From Phlyctochytrium arcticum (taxonomy: Eukaryota > Chytridiomycota > Chytridiomycetes > Chytridiales > Chytridiaceae): a stretch of DNA of 64,000 bases. The notes below the pieces were generated by a model. It was not told the origin of the DNA and did not search any database. It saw only the letters and a list, made by a program, of their open reading frames with translations. The stretch is taken from positions 178,655 through 242,654 of the forward strand of contig JAHLKI010000036.1 in the NCBI GenBank assembly GCA_025602905.1, written 5' to 3'. Numbering within the stretch: the stretch's first letter is position 1; each line of letters opens with the position of its first letter. Position numbers and translations under genes: made by a program. This document shows positions 28,458 through 37,882 of the stretch, one piece after another.

Positions 28458-29108
28458 TCGTCGTTTCTTGTCACCAGCTTGGATGTGGAAAATAGTATCA
28501 AAAAGTGTGCAACAACCCGATATATCCAGCTTATGGGCACCAAAACACCAAGGCTGTGATAATTCCCACTTATGGAAGAACAAGCATAAGTTTAAAGCGA
28601 AGGTGTTAGCGTCGTCTGCAGGAAATGGATCCTCGAGCATGAATTATTCCTTTCCCACCAACCAGTGGATCGATTTTTCCATATTTAAATGTGTAATGTT
28701 GACGGTGCACGAATTTTTATGGGTTTTGTTACAAATTCTGTTCAATCTGTTGCCAAAAATCGCCACAACTTGTGTATTCGGCCGAATTTCGGAGATAAAG
28801 GCTTTGCATGTAAAACTAAGTAGAGCGGCGGAGCGGCGGAGTGGAGCAGCAGCATAGAATCCACAGATATCCGTAAGATACAGAAATTCTTATACATTCT
28901 AAATATCGAAGCTCGAAGATCATTGACTCGAAATCAATAATGAATTGATTTTTGTACCAAGTCGTGCGGACGAGAAAAAATACAGACGAGGACTAATATC
29001 GCTGATAGAGGCATTTCATATTTCATGTAGAACATGATATTCGGAAACGTCGGTAGCATAGCTCGATAAAGTTCAGCTCGTTTTTTGGAAGCGTTTCTTT
29101 ATAGAGAT

Positions 29109-29162
29109 ATTTCACAGAATGCCCCTCTTTTGTTTTATTTCACAGAATGCCCTCGGGCATTC
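29109..29162. repeat. Direct repeat plus hairpin
   Basis: ATTTCACAGAATGCCC occurs at 29109-29124 and 29137-29152. The second copy is part of a perfect hairpin, GAATGCCC-TC-GGGCATTC (29145-29162). Function unknown. Confidence 0.55.
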
Positions 29163-29421
29163 TCGGTAATGCCGGCAAAAGCCGGAATGTTGGTTATAAA
29201 CTTATTTGCGGATAATATATGTATATAGCACATGCGCAGTGCTTGCTCTGGACCTGACCTTGATTGGAAAGCAAGCACTGATGACAGTACATACCTTTCG
29301 GCGTGATAGTTTACAGCCAAAGCAAAGATACGAGTACATCATCAGACATTAAAAAGTAACGCGCAAACTCAGAAACACAAACTACAGCTAAGAACTTCGA
29401 GAGGCAGCAAAACATCAAGTC

Positions 29422-29462
29422 TGTCACAGTGCATAGCCTTTAAAAGGCTATGCACTGTGACA
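29422..29462. repeat. Long perfect palindrome (19-bp arms, 3-nt loop)
   Basis: TGTCACAGTGCATAGCCTT (29422-29440), loop TAA, then its exact reverse complement (29444-29462). It lies 78 bp outside the DNA transposon. It is not followed by a T-run and no gene ends here, so a terminator role is unlikely. It may be the remnant of a foldback element. Confidence 0.8.
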
Positions 29463-29547
29463 CTAGGGGTTTATATAGGGCCATATAGGGTCATATTTGG
29501 GGTGGTAGGGATCTACTTCTGTGCACGTGGCTGTATCGTATAGAGAT

Positions 29548-29572
29548 CCCAGCGCACGGGTTCCATTTTAGG
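29548..29572. repeat. Left TIR of the outer transposon
   Basis: Begins CCCAGCGCACGGGTTCC directly after the 8-bp target duplication. Exact inverse of 36201-36225. Confidence 0.9.
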
Positions 29573-29970
29573 CTAAATGATCTCAAACTTGTGCGCAGCT
29601 GTGGACTGAACACTTTCTGAGCAGAAGAACGTCTATTAAAACCTTAAAGATAGGCATACTGATATGAATGATTCCCTTTCAATGAAGTCAAATTTGAGGT
29701 TTCCAAAAAAAAATTCACGCTTTGGTAATAAAACTAGTCTATTCTACGAAAATTTTGAGAAGAGAGTATAACCGCGATGGGCTTGTTGGAGGATTGGAGA
29801 CTTGGACCTGGATAGATTCAGTTAAAAATTGCAGGAATGAAATTTCAGACATGTCTCTAGGAACTGACACAAGCTGTGGGCATTTGGTGCGGTCATTCCG
29901 GCGATTGATGCATATCTATGTCCGCGTTTGTGTCAGCACGATCAAGATGCGGTAGGTCACAGTGAGTTAC

Positions 29971-32900
29971 TTACCACAGCTCCTCAGTGATCTCCTCATC
30001 CTCATCTTCGTCTCTTACAAAGTCTTCATCCGAGAGGGGCTTCGCCATGTTGTGTATCCACCAGATAAATTCATTCCCAGCAATTAACTGTTTGAGGTGA
30101 ATGCAGATATCTTGACTCAAAATAGGGCATTGACAAATGATTGAACCAGGCCTCATCGGGGGTTTTTCGAATGTGGAAAACTTATTGAAGAACTTCTTAT
30201 TGTCAGTTGCGGCATCACCTTGATTGGTTATGTCTTGAAGCGGGGTTCGCACTCTCTCAACTGCAGCAAAGTCACTAATATCCGTGTGAACGTTCAGAGG
30301 AACGACCTTCTTATCTCCCCAGAGGGTAAGTGGTAATAACCGTTCGGACACAGTCACGATTACTTCAGGCGGGATATTACAGTTGATGAATTTCGAAATT
30401 TTGGTGTTCTTCTTTCGCTTCTTCTTCGCGGGTTCCGTTGCTGTAGCGGTTGATGGCTGGGATGGGGCCACTATATAGCGGACCTGATACCCGCGAACTT
30501 TTCTAGCGGTGGCAGAATGAGAGAACATCATCTCTCCCTTGATGGTGATGTTGGGCGAATTGGCAATGAGTTTGCGGAACATGTCCTTAAGAGTAGCGAC
30601 CATGATTTCGAGATGTGAGTTAAAGTACTGTGTACGTTTGGTCTCTACGGGCTGTCGTGGTTGAAGTGTGAACTTTCCCGCGAACTTTGTCCATGGTGTC
30701 CGCTTTCCTGTCGTCAGCTTTTTGTTTTGCGACTTGCGCCAGAAATGACCTTGAACTTAAATTTTTGTTTGCAGAGAGGTAAAGTGTGTTTAAGACGGCA
30801 CGGCCGTGCGAGTCGAATGGCCGGATGCAAGCACGGAGGAGGGAGTGGAAAACCTCCAGATCCTCAGAACTTGCTAGTGGCAGGTTGCTGTATAGCGCAG
30901 CAGTGATGTTATCATCACCCCCCATCTCAATCTCCTGGATTGCAGAGAGAATGTGGAGAACGATGGTGACATAGTTCCTTTTGCGATATCGTATGAAGAG
31001 TGGCAACAACCTATGCAGTACCTCCTTATACAGCACAATGTTGCCGCTGGCCATGGCCGTTGCAGCATCCAGTACGAGCGGCAACTCTTCATCGAACAGC
31101 CGGATGAGGGAGTCCACTATGACACGCTGGAATTCGGGGAGATCTTTCTGCTGTTTCGCCCAATCCATCACTTGGACACGGCACTGTTTCCAAGCTAAGA
31201 ACATCATTGTTAGCAACATCATGCGCCTTACAGGTCGCAGCTTTACTAGTTGAACGGCAAAATCCGGGAATGCGGAGCTCCAAATAGGCATGAACACATT
31301 GAAGTTCCATTGCAATAACGCTGTGATGCATTAAGTATGTAGCCTTGAGACGATGATAATAAGGATTTACCTTGCTGGGCATTCAGTGCGATGTGCATAC
31401 CATCAGGCCATGGGCAAAGAACGATTCGGAGATATGCATGGTCTGGAGATAGACGGCCCCGCGTTTTCGCCCATAGTATCTTCATGACGTTCCGCCAAAC
31501 ATAAAAGTCGCCAGTAATGAAAATCGCTCCGTCTTTGTAGTGTTCAATAAACTTCTTGACGGAAACCATTAGAGATCGTAAATCTTCCGCAGTCTTCATT
31601 CTGTTCGGCATCGCATCGAAAACATGAAACTGTTTTAATTCAGCGGCACTGGTTGACATGTCGAATTGATACGGCCTGCGAAAAGCATTCGCTTGGTTTG
31701 TGTTGATAATTTTTTCGCCGTAGGTTTCCTTCTCAACGATGTCAGTTATTGCTTTGTCTAGGAGAGGCGCGTTGACGAAGGCCTTCTTGTCCTTGTCAGA
31801 TCCCATGTCACTGAAGTCTATATACGGCTTTTCCAAGAGTGGTAGAGGTAAAGCTCGATGTACGTGTCCATTCTCCTCATCATAAGACGATTGCCCCTTC
31901 GGAAAAAACTTCACAGCCAAGTTAGCTTGAGTTTGCACGGTGCTGAACTTTCCTGAGTTCGCCGAACCAGGTGTTCCATGAACTGAAACTCTGTTGAAGT
32001 CGTCCATCTTGACAACTGGAACAACTGTACCCCCGCTCATCTGTTCGGTCAGCTCCTTGTACGCCCTCGCGTTCGCTTCCTTCATTTTCTGCTTCGCTAC
32101 GTCCGGACTGAAACTCAAATTAAAAGACGCGAGCACCTTTCTACTGCTCTCGGATAATCCTAATGTGGTTGATATCAACACATCCTTCATGAAATTGATG
32201 TGGGGATGAAGGAATGCGGCCTTCTGTACAGTAATGGAAGCTATGATTCTTCTCCTTCTCTCTGACTCTGTTTGCTTCCAGCTAACGGCTGGTAGAAATG
32301 TTTCAGTTTCACTGGTATGAGTGGTCAAGCATTAGGTACCTGAGAGCCCCAAGTCGACCGCTGTCTTCGTCGCCAAATTGTCGCAACTATCTAAATGCTC
32401 AATAAACGCGTCCAAATCCGATGTAAAAGGCATCTTGAGATCACACTCCTTGTCAAGCAGGTCAAGAACGCCGTTCCTAAACTTCAAGGTATCGGACATG
32501 ACCGGCTCAACAAAATCGTTCCTGTTGTCCTCCAAGTCGACAGTGATAGTGCCAAAGTTGATTGTGCGCGTAGGCGTAGGTGAGGCGATCGTGGGCGAGC
32601 CGAATGTGGGCGAGCCAAACGTGGGCGTGACGGGTGTATGCACCCCGAAAATAGGCTCAACGGGTTCAAACGTTGCAGGTGTAGGCATGACAGGTTGTGC
32701 AATCACGGATATTGGCGGTACCGGCATGGGCGTGACGTGTGTGATGGTTGTCGATGTACTAGTTGCGACTGCCTGGGCATCGTTTTCCTTCTGATTTACT
32801 CGAAACAAGGGATGTGGGTACTTGCGGTCAAGTTGGTTCCAGCATTTTTTGCAAAACGTGGCATTCTTGTGGCCGGCATCCGTGCTGAAATGAAATGGGA

Positions 32901-33072
32901 CGTTGTTCGCTCGAAGATGGGCAAGAAGACCGAGATCTCGATGGCAGTAGCGGGTACTGGACTTGGTCTTGCAAATGATGCAGACAGGCTTGACTCCTTT
33001 CGGTTCTGTATCGTTGAATGGTGCGATGAATCGGCCATCCTGCCGCCGATTATTGGGGGGACTAGAAGCCAT
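29971..33072 (-). CDS. 985-aa transposon protein, candidate novel DDE transposase
   Basis: Exons 33072-32340, 32288-31371, 31320-30629 and 30585-29971 (introns 51, 50 and 43 bp) give 985 residues; the last junction is the least certain. The N-terminus has a Cys/His cluster (CIICKTKSSTRYCHRD and GHKNATFCKKCWNQ, residues 31-75) that may bind zinc. A Pro/Thr-rich linker follows. The central part has VVKMDDFNRVSVHG (Asp near 340), GAIFITGDFYVWRNVM (Asp near 505), LCPWPDGMHIALNAQQ across an intron, then LFIRYRKRNYVTIVLHIL and SSEDLEVFHSLLR (Glu near 703-706). The order D, GD, then a helical region with E suggests an RNase H-like triad. The layout also recalls the large fungal DUF6589-type proteins. 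A basic segment PAKKKRKKNTKIS could be a nuclear signal. It is the only gene of the outer element. Confidence 0.7.
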
Positions 33073-33406
33073 GATAACTCGAGTGGACCCCGATAAAACG
33101 CTCCAATATTGAAGACAGGCTGAGATAATATGTGTGCCGAGGGTATCTAAGCGTCTCCGTACTCGTCCAATGCGAGGGACCGAAACGGGGGGACCTGGAA
33201 GGGGGGGGAGTTAAAAGAGAAATCGCCATCTGAAATTCGCACATAACTGTTATCATTGCTACACAAAACGGCTCAAAACGTCAGCCAATCCAAAGTGAAT
33301 TATTACATCTCGAGGTTCGTGACGTAAAAGCGCAACTTTATTGACAGTCTGCAATGAAACAGGGTCAAGGTTGATTTACCAACACGTATTTCACGAACAC
33401 GCCGGA

Positions 33407-33484
33407 GGCCGTGACTAGGAATCGTACAGTCGGGCTAGGAATCGTACAGTCGCACAGCCACCTGAAATATCGACTGTCTCTGCG
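33407..33484. repeat. Left TIR of the MULE
   Basis: 78 bp, inverse of 36076-36153 with a single mismatch. It contains two spaced copies of AATCGTACAGTCG, possible transposase binding sites. Confidence 0.9.
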
Positions 33485-33675
33485 TTGCTTGAATCTCCGC
33501 TCCAGATCCAGCTCGAGATCTCTAGATTCTCGACGCACAGCGCCCTCGTGAGGATCTACCTGCACATACACACTTTCCAAACGCATCACTAAAAGTAAGA
33601 ACCCCAGTTTACGTCTTTCCGCCGATGGCGACGCATTAAACAGGATGGGTTTCCTTCCGTTTGTTGTAGCTCACC

Positions 33676-35952
33676 ATGATCGCTGGACCGTCCACAGATT
33701 CTGCGACTGCAGAAACTGGTGCGGCAGCTAATGCGATTGCTTTCAATTCTCTTGACGAGCTTCTCGAGTATTCCAAGGCTAAAGCCAAAGCAAATGGAAT
33801 TGCACTCACAAGAACTAGCAACAACGAGAAGTTCTATCTTCGTTGCTCTCGTTGGGGATCTGTCCGCGAGAAGCAGGAAGCCACCGTAGACTCAGAGGAT
33901 CAGAAGAAGCGCAACCGGGGAAGCCTGCGATGCGGGTGCAAATTCCAGCAGTATGTCGCGCAGGACAAGAGAGGGTTAAAGGGTCCCAAGAATACGTGGT
34001 ACCTGCACCAATCCTCCAATGAGCACAACCACGGGAATTCCGCAACCGTTGCATTTGCCGCATATCGGCAATTCAATGATGAGCACAAGGATTATCTGAG
34101 GCAGCATGCCAGAACAACGGTGAAAGAGCTTGTTCTGTCATTCCGCAGGACCTTTCCGAATCAACCAGTCATTGACAAGGATACCCGCAACTTTCGCACC
34201 CTGGAGCAAATGGAAGCAGCAAAGGGCAGATCTGCCATAGAGTGCTTGTTGGACGGGCTGAATCAACCTGAGTCCAAATATACGGTTAGCTACCAAACCA
34301 GCGATGATGGTGCTCTAACGCACTTATTTTTTGCGCATGAAAAGAGCATCGCTAAATTGCAACAATACCCGGACGTACTGATCTTAGATTGTACATACAA
34401 AACCAACAAGTGGCAGATGCCGCTTTTCAACATCCTTGGTGTGGACGGCACTGGAAAGTCTTTTACCGTAGGTTACGCGTTTTTGCGAGGCGAAACTGCG
34501 GAGGATTACACTTGGGCGTTGAACAATATAGCTGGTCTTTTGGCAGGCAGCCGCGGAATCAAAACTGCGTTTGTGGATTGTGCCCCTGCTTTGATGAATG
34601 CCTTGGAGTCGATCTTTCCAGGTATCTTTTCAGCTTAAACGAGGCTTATTTGTGCTGGGTTATTTACTTTCTTATCAGGAATTAGTGTCCTGCTTTGTAT
34701 CTTTCATATTGTGGAGAACGTCGGCGCCCAGCTCGTGCGCAAATACCCTGATGTTACGGACGAAAGCAAGCAAAGTATTATCACACTTTGGAACTCAGTC
34801 GTCTATGCTGCAACCCTTGAGGACTATGCGGCCGCTGTTCAAGCACTTTGGGACGAACTTGATGACGATTTCCCAATGATACGTATGTATCTAGAGGATA
34901 CATGGCTCGTCCATCATAAGCGGTTTGTGAAGTTTTGGACAAGTCAGGTTCTAACGCTGGGAATTAGGGCTACATCCCGAGTTGAAGGGTCGCATCGCTG
35001 CCTTAAAGACTGGCTTCACAATGGGGTCGGCGACTTTATGACCATATTTGCCGCTATGGATACCTTTATTGACAAGCAGCTCACCGACATCCAGAACGCA
35101 TTCGACGTCGAAAAAGACCGTTTGAGTACGAAGATGCGCGAAATCTTGAATGAGACCCATCAGATTCGGGAACATGTCTCGCGCGTTACTTTCAATGACC
35201 ACCTCTATGACAGTATTATCCAAGCTCGCACGGAGGGTCCTCTGCAACAGTGCAATCACCAGTACGCCGTCACAATGGGTTTACCTTGCGCCGACCAAAT
35301 TCGCTACGAGTACAACCTGACGATCCCACTGTCAGCCATCCATCCGGCTTGGCGATATTATCCTAGCGATACCAATATTGATCCATACTGTCCATTCGAT
35401 GCGACATTGGATCCCTATGAGCGACTAGAAATTGAGCTGGCTGCTGTACGAAAGCGGTTTGATACCTTGCAAACGGCATCCCAACGGCAGCGTGCCCTGC
35501 AACAACTCACCCAGGTTGGAATCATCAGCGGATCCGTCTTGGTCCCGGTACGGAACAAGCGTGCCGACACTATGGCCCAGCATCACGCTTCCAAACGCCA
35601 ACGAACAGACACCTCAACCCGTGCGGATCCTACGTTGTCGGCGCATGTAGCTAGAGAGCAGCAGGAGCGTGCCGCAACGGCCAAGGCAGCTACCAGGGCG
35701 AAGCCCAAATGTAGCGCGTGTGGATCTATAGACCACAATGCAAAGCGATGCGAAGTAGCTCGCGTGAGGGAGGCTGCGCGCATTAGGACTGCCTGTGGTT
35801 TACCTGCTGTGACGCCTACTGGTAGTGGTGCTGCTGGTAATGTGGACGACTTTGTTGATGTTAATGGCATGAGTGACCTTAGCGCTGGTGGTCTAGACGA
35901 TTCAATTAACGAGGATGTGAGTATACTCATGGACCTGGCGATGAGCGAGTAG
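33676..35952 (+). CDS. MULE transposase (FAR1-type N-terminus, zinc knuckle C-terminus)
   Basis: Two exons, 33676-34621 and 34679-35952 (57-bp intron), give 739 residues. The N-terminal part resembles a FAR1-type DNA-binding region (FYLRCSRWGSV, RRGSLRCGCKF-like Cys, HNHGNSATVAF). The MULE catalytic domain has DVLILDCTYKTNKWQMPLFN (first Asp), FLRGETAEDYTWAL, FVDCAPALMNALESIFPG (second Asp), the spliced LLCIFHIVENVGAQLV and TSRVEGSHRCLKDWL (Glu). A CCHC-type knuckle CSACGSIDHNAKRC lies near residue 655. All DDE residues are present and there is no stop or frameshift, so the element may still be active. Confidence 0.92.
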
Positions 35953-36075
35953 CTAGTATCATTGTAGTGTTCGTAGTTCTGTAGTGTTCTTATTTTCGTT
36001 TCGTAGGATGTTTCTTTTATATATATATCTGTGTGTGCCGGTTCGCGCGTTGCGATTATTTCCACGCGAGTCTGA

Positions 36076-36153
36076 CGCAGAGACAGTCGATATTTCAGGT
36101 GGCTGTGCGACTGTACGATTTCTAGCCCGACTGTACGATTCCTAGTCACGGCC
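36076..36153. repeat. Right TIR of the MULE
   Basis: Inverse of 33407-33484 and followed directly by the 9-bp duplication TACGCCGGA. Confidence 0.9.
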
Positions 36154-36200
36154 TACGCCGGAGCTCTGATTACATCAGCGTGGCTGCGACTCTGATTTGT

Positions 36201-36225
36201 CCTAAAATGGAACCCGTGCGCTGGG
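36201..36225. repeat. Right TIR of the outer transposon
   Basis: Exact reverse complement of 29548-29572, followed directly by ATAGAGAT (36226-36233), the second copy of the outer target duplication. Confidence 0.9.
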
Positions 36226-36524
36226 ATAGAGATGAATGCGGTCACAGAATTGAGAATATAAGTTACAAAACGCTCACCTAAACCCTGCCGCCCCCCCCCA
36301 TTGCAACCATTTGCTCCTATTTCCGCCTGGAAACCCGCACTAGAAAACTCTCCGGAAAGACTCTCTCGAACCGCTTCCTTGCCCCAGAACCAACTTCCAC
36401 AACCGACAACAAGAAACTCTTGCCGGCCCGCATCCCACCCAAGTGTTTTTTTTTCTTCCTGCCTTCTGACAACACCCCCCCTGCACACCCAACCTCCAAA
36501 CTTATCGTCTACCGATCTCTTACC

Positions 36525-37091
36525 ATGCCTAAAGCTCCTCGCAAGGCCAAGGCGTCGCCCCAGCGCAAGACGGTTGCGCAAAGCAAGGCGTCTGCTCACT
36601 CTGTCGTCGGCTCCAACAGCGAGGCCCTCCGAGCATTCCGCTCCACCCATGCCTCAACCTCCCTCGCCAGTGACACTTACTACCACCATCTGCGTCGGGC
36701 CAAGGCTCACGTTGCATCTGCAGTGGCCTCTACTTCACCCAACACCTCTCCCCGAACCTCCAAGCGTAAGCCAGCATTCCCTTGCCGGGCACTGTCTCGC
36801 AATTCTGCCGATACGGAGCCAGGTCTAGTGCTCAACATCGACTGGGCCGGTGTGGTCCAAGTTCGCCCCATAGGCCCGCTGCTTGTAGCGGCATACGGTC
36901 GGCGCAAGTCTGGGTCTGACTCGGGACGAAGTTCGGTCAGCTCGCCACGGTCGGCATTGGTCTCGCCGGTTGTGAGGAAAAAGGACCCCAAGGCCGGACT
37001 TCCAAAGACAGTAGCCCCTCGAGACTCGACACTTGGGGGCTCAAGTGAATCTGAAAGCAGCAATGGCAGCCGCCTCTCCCGACGTTTCTGA
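36525..37091 (+). CDS. Basic Ser/Ala-rich protein of unknown function
   Basis: An intronless 188-residue protein starting at MPKAPRKAKASPQRKTV. I do not recognise it. The first 30 residues are strongly basic. Most of the chain is Ser/Ala/Arg-rich and probably disordered (VASAVASTSPNTSPRTSKRK; SSVSSPRSALVSPVVRKK), with several SP sites. One hydrophobic stretch stands out: LVLNIDWAGVVQVRPIGPLL near residues 103-122. The upstream 240 bp is strongly pyrimidine-rich with a C9 run (36291-36299), typical of promoters of well-expressed fungal genes. A chromatin- or RNA-binding role is only a guess. Confidence 0.55.
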   Translation: MPKAPRKAKASPQRKTVAQSKASAHSVVGSNSEALRAFRSTHASTSLASDTYYHHLRRAKAHVASAVASTSPNTSPRTSKRKPAFPCRALSRNSADTEPGLVLNIDWAGVVQVRPIGPLLVAAYGRRKSGSDSGRSSVSSPRSALVSPVVRKKDPKAGLPKTVAPRDSTLGGSSESESSNGSRLSRRF

Positions 37092-37882
37092 ACGTCCCAG
37101 CATTGCCTTCACCTAGGACCTATTGCACGCGCAATTCGTCGACATTGTCTTCGCCCTTCCCCTCCCCAAAGGGCCCCCAACATGTAGACTCGTTCTGCAA
37201 AGTCGATCCCTATATCCAAAGACCCAACTGAACTGTTTTTTCTTGTTTTTCTTTGTACATTCTTTTCGCACTTTTCACTCTCACTCTCCTCCCCCACCCC
37301 TCCCCACTAAACCGTTGCACGTTCCTTGTTTAAAAACATCTGCATTATATCTTTTCAACCCCCATAACGCTGTAGTCCGCCAATAGGACAGCCATAATAA
37401 GAAAATCTCTGCTCTGAGCTCTCTTTTCTTCCATTGAGGACCTTCTGTTTTTGTGCGAGCGCCCATCACGTCAAACTTCAGCTCTGGGCCTTGTGTGACC
37501 ATCATTTGCCCTTACCAGCGTATAGTGCGTCCACAGCCACTTGCTACGTTCAGACGACCAAAATTTGTATTTTTCGCCCTGCAGCGCAAACATCTCCAGA
37601 TTGCCAGCAAAACCAACTTGAACAAGGTAAGATCCACTCAAGGGGCGAACTGGTATCAGTTGGGACTCAAAATCTCTTGTAGTCCACGAAGATCCGGTGA
37701 ACGATCACACTCCGGAGACACAGACGATTGCCATGTCGCGTTGAACATTGAGGAAGCAGCAGTTGGCGTTACATATTGTGACTATCGCATAAGTAAAGCA
37801 AAGTTCCGACACAATCAGCGCAATCAGAGTATCAGTCTGACGGAGCGCTTTGTGAAAGAAGTCTGTCGGGTATAGCATAGAA
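37092..37882. other. Intergenic (0.8 kb)
   Basis: T/C-rich in the first half (37210-37310), probably the 3' UTR of the Ser-rich gene, then the FANCM promoter. Short ORFs here (for example 37453-37875) have no recognisable motif. A 5' UTR intron could lie here but cannot be proved. Confidence 0.45.

Follow-up and report, generated by a model that had tools for sequence, protein, structure and literature searches.

Several described groups of DNA transposons can be set beside the element at positions 29548 to 36225 of a 64,000-nucleotide stretch (the window) of contig JAHLKI010000036.1 from the chytrid Phlyctochytrium arcticum (taxid 1117335; assembly GCA_025602905.1). In the P superfamily, as laid out in PMC8230255, D230 lies on strand 1, D303 on strand 4 and a [C/D]xxH motif after strand 5, with an insertion at 339-528 and E531 in helix 4. 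Dada transposases carry a DxxH motif and an N-terminal four-cysteine zinc finger, and in PMC3706591 Dada elements have target-site duplications (TSDs) of 6-7 bp and small RNA genes as targets, the described families being without terminal inverted repeats (TIRs). KDZ elements (Zisupton, Kyakuja, Dileera) are found in fungi with TSDs of 7-8 bp (PMC12730594), and the Repbase superfamilies are listed in PMC5753468. The window element is very likely a copy of a cut-and-paste DNA transposon whose single gene product would be a DDE transposase with an RNase H fold and a helical insertion, of a lineage that by sequence fits none of the transposase families modelled in Pfam. New superfamily-level lineages of DDE transposons are seldom found.

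Element ends, copies and target-site duplications

The sequence-only reading had described perfect 25-bp TIRs, a perfect 8-bp TSD and a nested MULE, all of which were confirmed. The features at the element ends are as follows.

29540-29547, no strand: left TSD, ATAGAGAT, read directly
29548-29572, plus strand: left TIR, 25 bp, compared with the right end
36201-36225, minus strand: right TIR, 25 bp, exact reverse complement of the left by end comparison
36226-36233, no strand: right TSD, ATAGAGAT, read directly

A search of the element's own genome returned 10 copies at 98-100% identity and 6 weaker matches at 66-74%, with pairwise identities of 99.26-99.92% among the 8 window-type copies compared in full. 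The protein of a second subfamily is 72% identical to the window type, and further subfamilies were reached through proteins P0005, P0006 and P0013, with at least 57, 53 and 57 stretches matched; each exon counts as one stretch, and the three sets overlap. Where element ends were found they start with CNCAG, and full lengths range from 3.4 to 4.1 kb. A 21-base TIR pattern occurred 32 times in the genome and a second TIR pattern 35 times, each against 0 in the reversed control. Short non-autonomous copies were sought with these two patterns, but all pairs seen were at least about 3.3 kb apart.

An automatic scan, with no more than 1 mismatch in 14 bases between paired ends, placed a perfect 8-bp TSD beside matching ends in 22 of 35 fetched loci. 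Two window-type loci on contig C5, L013 and L016 (about 1.056 and 1.081 Mb), are inverted copies with exchanged TSD flanks, as a single inversion spanning about 25 kb between the two would explain; resolved in this way, they add two more TSDs. The copy at C15:207174-238115 (L048, L015) has the TSD CAGTATCG, perfect at both ends 31 kb apart, and seems to hold roughly 27 kb of other DNA. L041 and L042 (contigs C3 and C80) have identical flanks and the same TSD, and were therefore taken as one insertion in a duplicated segment and not as two. The further copies with different TSDs that had been named as a check are thus plentiful, with 25 independent TSDs in all, window included.

Element-free sites were matched by joined flanks at two loci. 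Those of L030 matched three places over query positions 1-200 at 100, 98 and 91%, and those of L033 gave one match of 200 bases at 91% plus four of 188-198 bases at 72-81%. The element thus inserts precisely, with duplication of 8 bp.

Against this reading stand the 13 of 35 loci in which the automatic scan found no clean ends. Four are explained, L013 and L016 by the swapped flanks, L015 by the distance between its ends and L022 by a TSD matching at 7 of 8 positions. The other nine (L023, L031, L032, L034, L039 and L043 to L046) are unexplained: L034 has two ends without a TSD, and the remaining eight are without a convincing end pair. A single weak, chance-like end pair in each of L013 and L045 (3 TIR mismatches and 1 TSD mismatch) was left out of the count.

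The transposase gene and its predicted product

The gene model is based on splice sites and on comparison with sibling copies.

32340-33072, minus strand: exon 1, start codon beginning at 33072
32289-32339, minus strand: intron 1, GT-AG, 51 nt
31371-32288, minus strand: exon 2
31321-31370, minus strand: intron 2, GT-AG, 50 nt
29971-31320, minus strand: exon 3, uninterrupted in intact copies; the window copy carries a frameshift and meets an in-frame stop at 30620-30622

The gene has three exons and encodes 1000 residues in intact copies, whereas the window copy is frameshifted and its product ends after 783. Nine window-type copies were entered in the reading comparison (the window, L009 to L014, L016 and L017), L017 and the tenth copy, L015, standing outside the count. 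Six (L009 to L013 and L016) are open to 1000 residues and L014 ends after 884. A four-exon gene for a 985-residue protein had been proposed; this model was rejected, as intact siblings read through, and both the fourth exon and the length of 985 arose from the frameshift of the window copy. That copy could at most move in trans, by means of intact siblings. With its near-identical copies the family looks recently active, as far as sequence identity can tell; together with the intact genes and an empty site at 100% identity they make the lineage look young, so that its activity is directly testable.

The proposed functional residues lie at the following positions.

32842-32982, minus strand: N-terminal zinc-finger-like motif C-x2-C-x39-C-x2-C, residues 31-77, read from the sequence, with zinc binding putative
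32002-32004, minus strand: codon for D340, the candidate for the first catalytic D, in MDDFN, which the models place on the first strand of the core
31507-31509, minus strand: codon for D505, the candidate for the second catalytic D, in GDFYV after strand 4
31393-31404, minus strand: DxxH motif (D540-H543), following strand 5
30854-30865, minus strand: E703-E706 within SSEDLEVF, where the catalytic E is proposed to lie, with E706 favoured

Five divergent proteins agree without exception in the leading D of DDF, in GD, in PDxMH and in the E..E of SSEDLEVF. Across the 22 proteins of alignment A3, several of them partial, conservation reaches at least 90% for GD, for the H of DxxH (H566 in PDxMH, which comes after the strand at 558-562 in the model), for the N of a KKNYV motif and for each E in SSEDLE; in two of the 22, P0011 and P0021, N replaces the D of DxxH. 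Among 23 proteins a pattern search found CxxC...CxxC in 6, and the majority of those without it are incomplete at the N-terminus. Over 988 codons, pS (synonymous) was 0.72 and pN (nonsynonymous) 0.16 between the gene of the window type and that of the 72% subfamily, with synonymous sites near saturation, and on this comparison the protein is judged to be under purifying selection.

Predicted structures of relatives have a fold resembling DDE transposases. The topology is that of an RNase H domain in which D-D-E fall on strand 1, on strand 4 and on a helix late in the fold, as in DDE/D RNase H enzymes, and DxxH follows strand 5 directly, as in the group of hAT, P, MuDR, Kolobok, Dada and IS256. 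Within the modelled RNase H fold, a helical insertion separates the DxxH motif from the proposed final catalytic E. As modelled, the fold itself is not new, since a DDE RNase H domain with a helical insertion is that of P, hAT, RAG/Transib and IS256 enzymes; the structural comparison covers the families listed by VIA.

Transposase activity is a prediction for this protein, and it could instead be a passenger in an element moved by another enzyme. This is highly improbable: besides the MULE, no other reading frames of gene length were seen within the window element, the same protein sits between TIRs in subfamilies only about 27% alike, and its relatives have the DDE-like predicted fold.

Relationship to described families

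No transposase profile in Pfam matched the 1000-residue protein or its 22 relatives, and the 1000-residue protein had no Pfam match of any kind. Pfam recognised the nested MULE and the hAT genes of the same genome at once. The earlier statement that no superfamily hallmark is recognisable agrees with this. Four proteins had no match in NCBIfam, no viral structure was found at E 0.001 or less, and a plasmid collection gave no match. The PDB searched by sequence gave none for A1 and one chance-like match for A4, a designed TIM barrel (E 0.89). A search by shared five-residue words, from which distant relatives could escape, scored about 8000 candidates from a protein collection each time and found 7, 11 and 11 proteins, all named from P. 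arcticum.

The nearest profile was DUF6589 (PF20231). Exon 3 alone gave a weak match (E 0.029), and E values were 5e-5 for P0001, 1.1e-3 for P0005, 0.078 for P0007 and 0.099 for P0008, with no match for P0006. Ten of the 22 members of alignment A3 matched it at E 1 or less, against 2 for the next family, and all five printed placements fall in profile positions 233-330. Searched with this profile, the genome gave 4 places and 14 control genomes 0, the search having no positive control. None of the matches seen attains the gathering cut-off of 27 bits, the best being 22.6 bits among proteins and 23.7 bits in the genome. The lineage is thus a probable distant relative of DUF6589 by profile similarity, in the sense of distant homology and not of membership. 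No paper was found under the name DUF6589 or IPR046496, PF20231 returned unrelated titles, and no paper was found on P. arcticum and transposons.

The layout of the protein agrees with that given for the P superfamily in PMC8230255. A very divergent P element, with a THAP-like zinc finger, an RNase H core with an insertion domain and an 8-bp TSD, is nevertheless unlikely. Neither a THAP nor a P-element profile matched any of the 22 proteins, which sets them apart from the Drosophila P element transposase (6pe2/6p5a); the P-type RNase H profile PF21787 found nothing in these proteins or in the genome, though the control of the genome search was also empty. The fourth zinc ligand of a THAP finger is H, whereas the fourth putative ligand here is C. 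In the structural comparison, moreover, Hermes ties.

A divergent hAT element is very improbable. The hAT dimerisation domain (hATC, PF05699) is in 0 of 22 proteins, yet it was found at 15 places in the same genome (one at C4:1208926), none overlapping the stretches matched by searches with the window type, P0005, P0006 or P0013. The TSD length of 8 bp agrees with hAT, but the pattern nTnnnnAn, typical of hAT TSDs, occurs in only 1 of 25 TSDs, and the CNCAG ends differ from the YARNG of hAT.

The lineage might also belong to a named Repbase group that Pfam does not model, for example Dada, Novosib or a branch of KDZ; this too we consider unlikely. DxxH and the N-terminal four-cysteine finger are shared with Dada, but the TIRs and 8-bp TSDs depart from Dada as described in PMC3706591, and no RNA genes were found at the insertion sites in 21 loci with ARAGORN, 20 loci with Rfam and window positions 28500-37300 with Rfam. 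KDZ elements resemble this one in their fungal hosts and in their TSDs of 7-8 bp (PMC12730594). No KDZ profile match was seen in the 22 proteins, with Pfam taken to include a KDZ model. The MULE domain likewise had no match in the 22 proteins, and the TSD is 8 bp, not 9 bp.

Judged from profile searches, the lineage fits no transposase family with a Pfam model, named groups being assessed only as far as those models reach. On that footing its novelty is that of a superfamily or of a very distant branch, within a known kind of enzyme; the proposal of an undescribed transposon group is supported for the sequence, which fits no Pfam transposase family, and not for the predicted fold, which is of the known DDE RNase H type. 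More tentatively, the elements and DUF6589 may together form an unrecognised DDE transposon superfamily of the P/hAT/Dada fold type, in which case DUF6589 proteins elsewhere would be transposases or domesticated relics. Should the link be true, an enzyme activity could be predicted for a Pfam family whose function is unknown.

Proposed mechanism and the nested MULE

The overall route is most likely cut-and-paste, carried out by the DDE enzyme that the element encodes. Binding of the inverted ends would fall to the N-terminal CxxC...CxxC motif together with the helices following it, D340, D505 and E706 would cut the element ends with metal ions, and joining with an 8-base stagger followed by gap repair would give the 8-bp duplication.

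The MULE is nested upstream of the transposase gene.

33399-33407, no strand: left TSD of the nested MULE, 9 bp, ACGCCGGAG
33408-36154, plus strand: nested MULE, reading frames 33670-34638 and 34639-35952
36155-36163, no strand: right TSD of the nested MULE, 9 bp, ACGCCGGAG

At 2.7 kb it leaves the outer transposase reading frame uncut. It contains the MULE domain PF10551 (E 4.9e-17, Pfam) and a FAR1-like match of 27.5 bits, slightly below the Pfam cut-off of 28.1.

The related gene copies in L043, L044 and L045 lie at most about 5 kb from contig ends, on C10, C13 and C18. At C13:55000-62000 (L046) a P0005-type copy adjoins a reading frame resembling that of the window's nested MULE, and a second P0005-type copy in inverse orientation starts about 3.4 kb from it.
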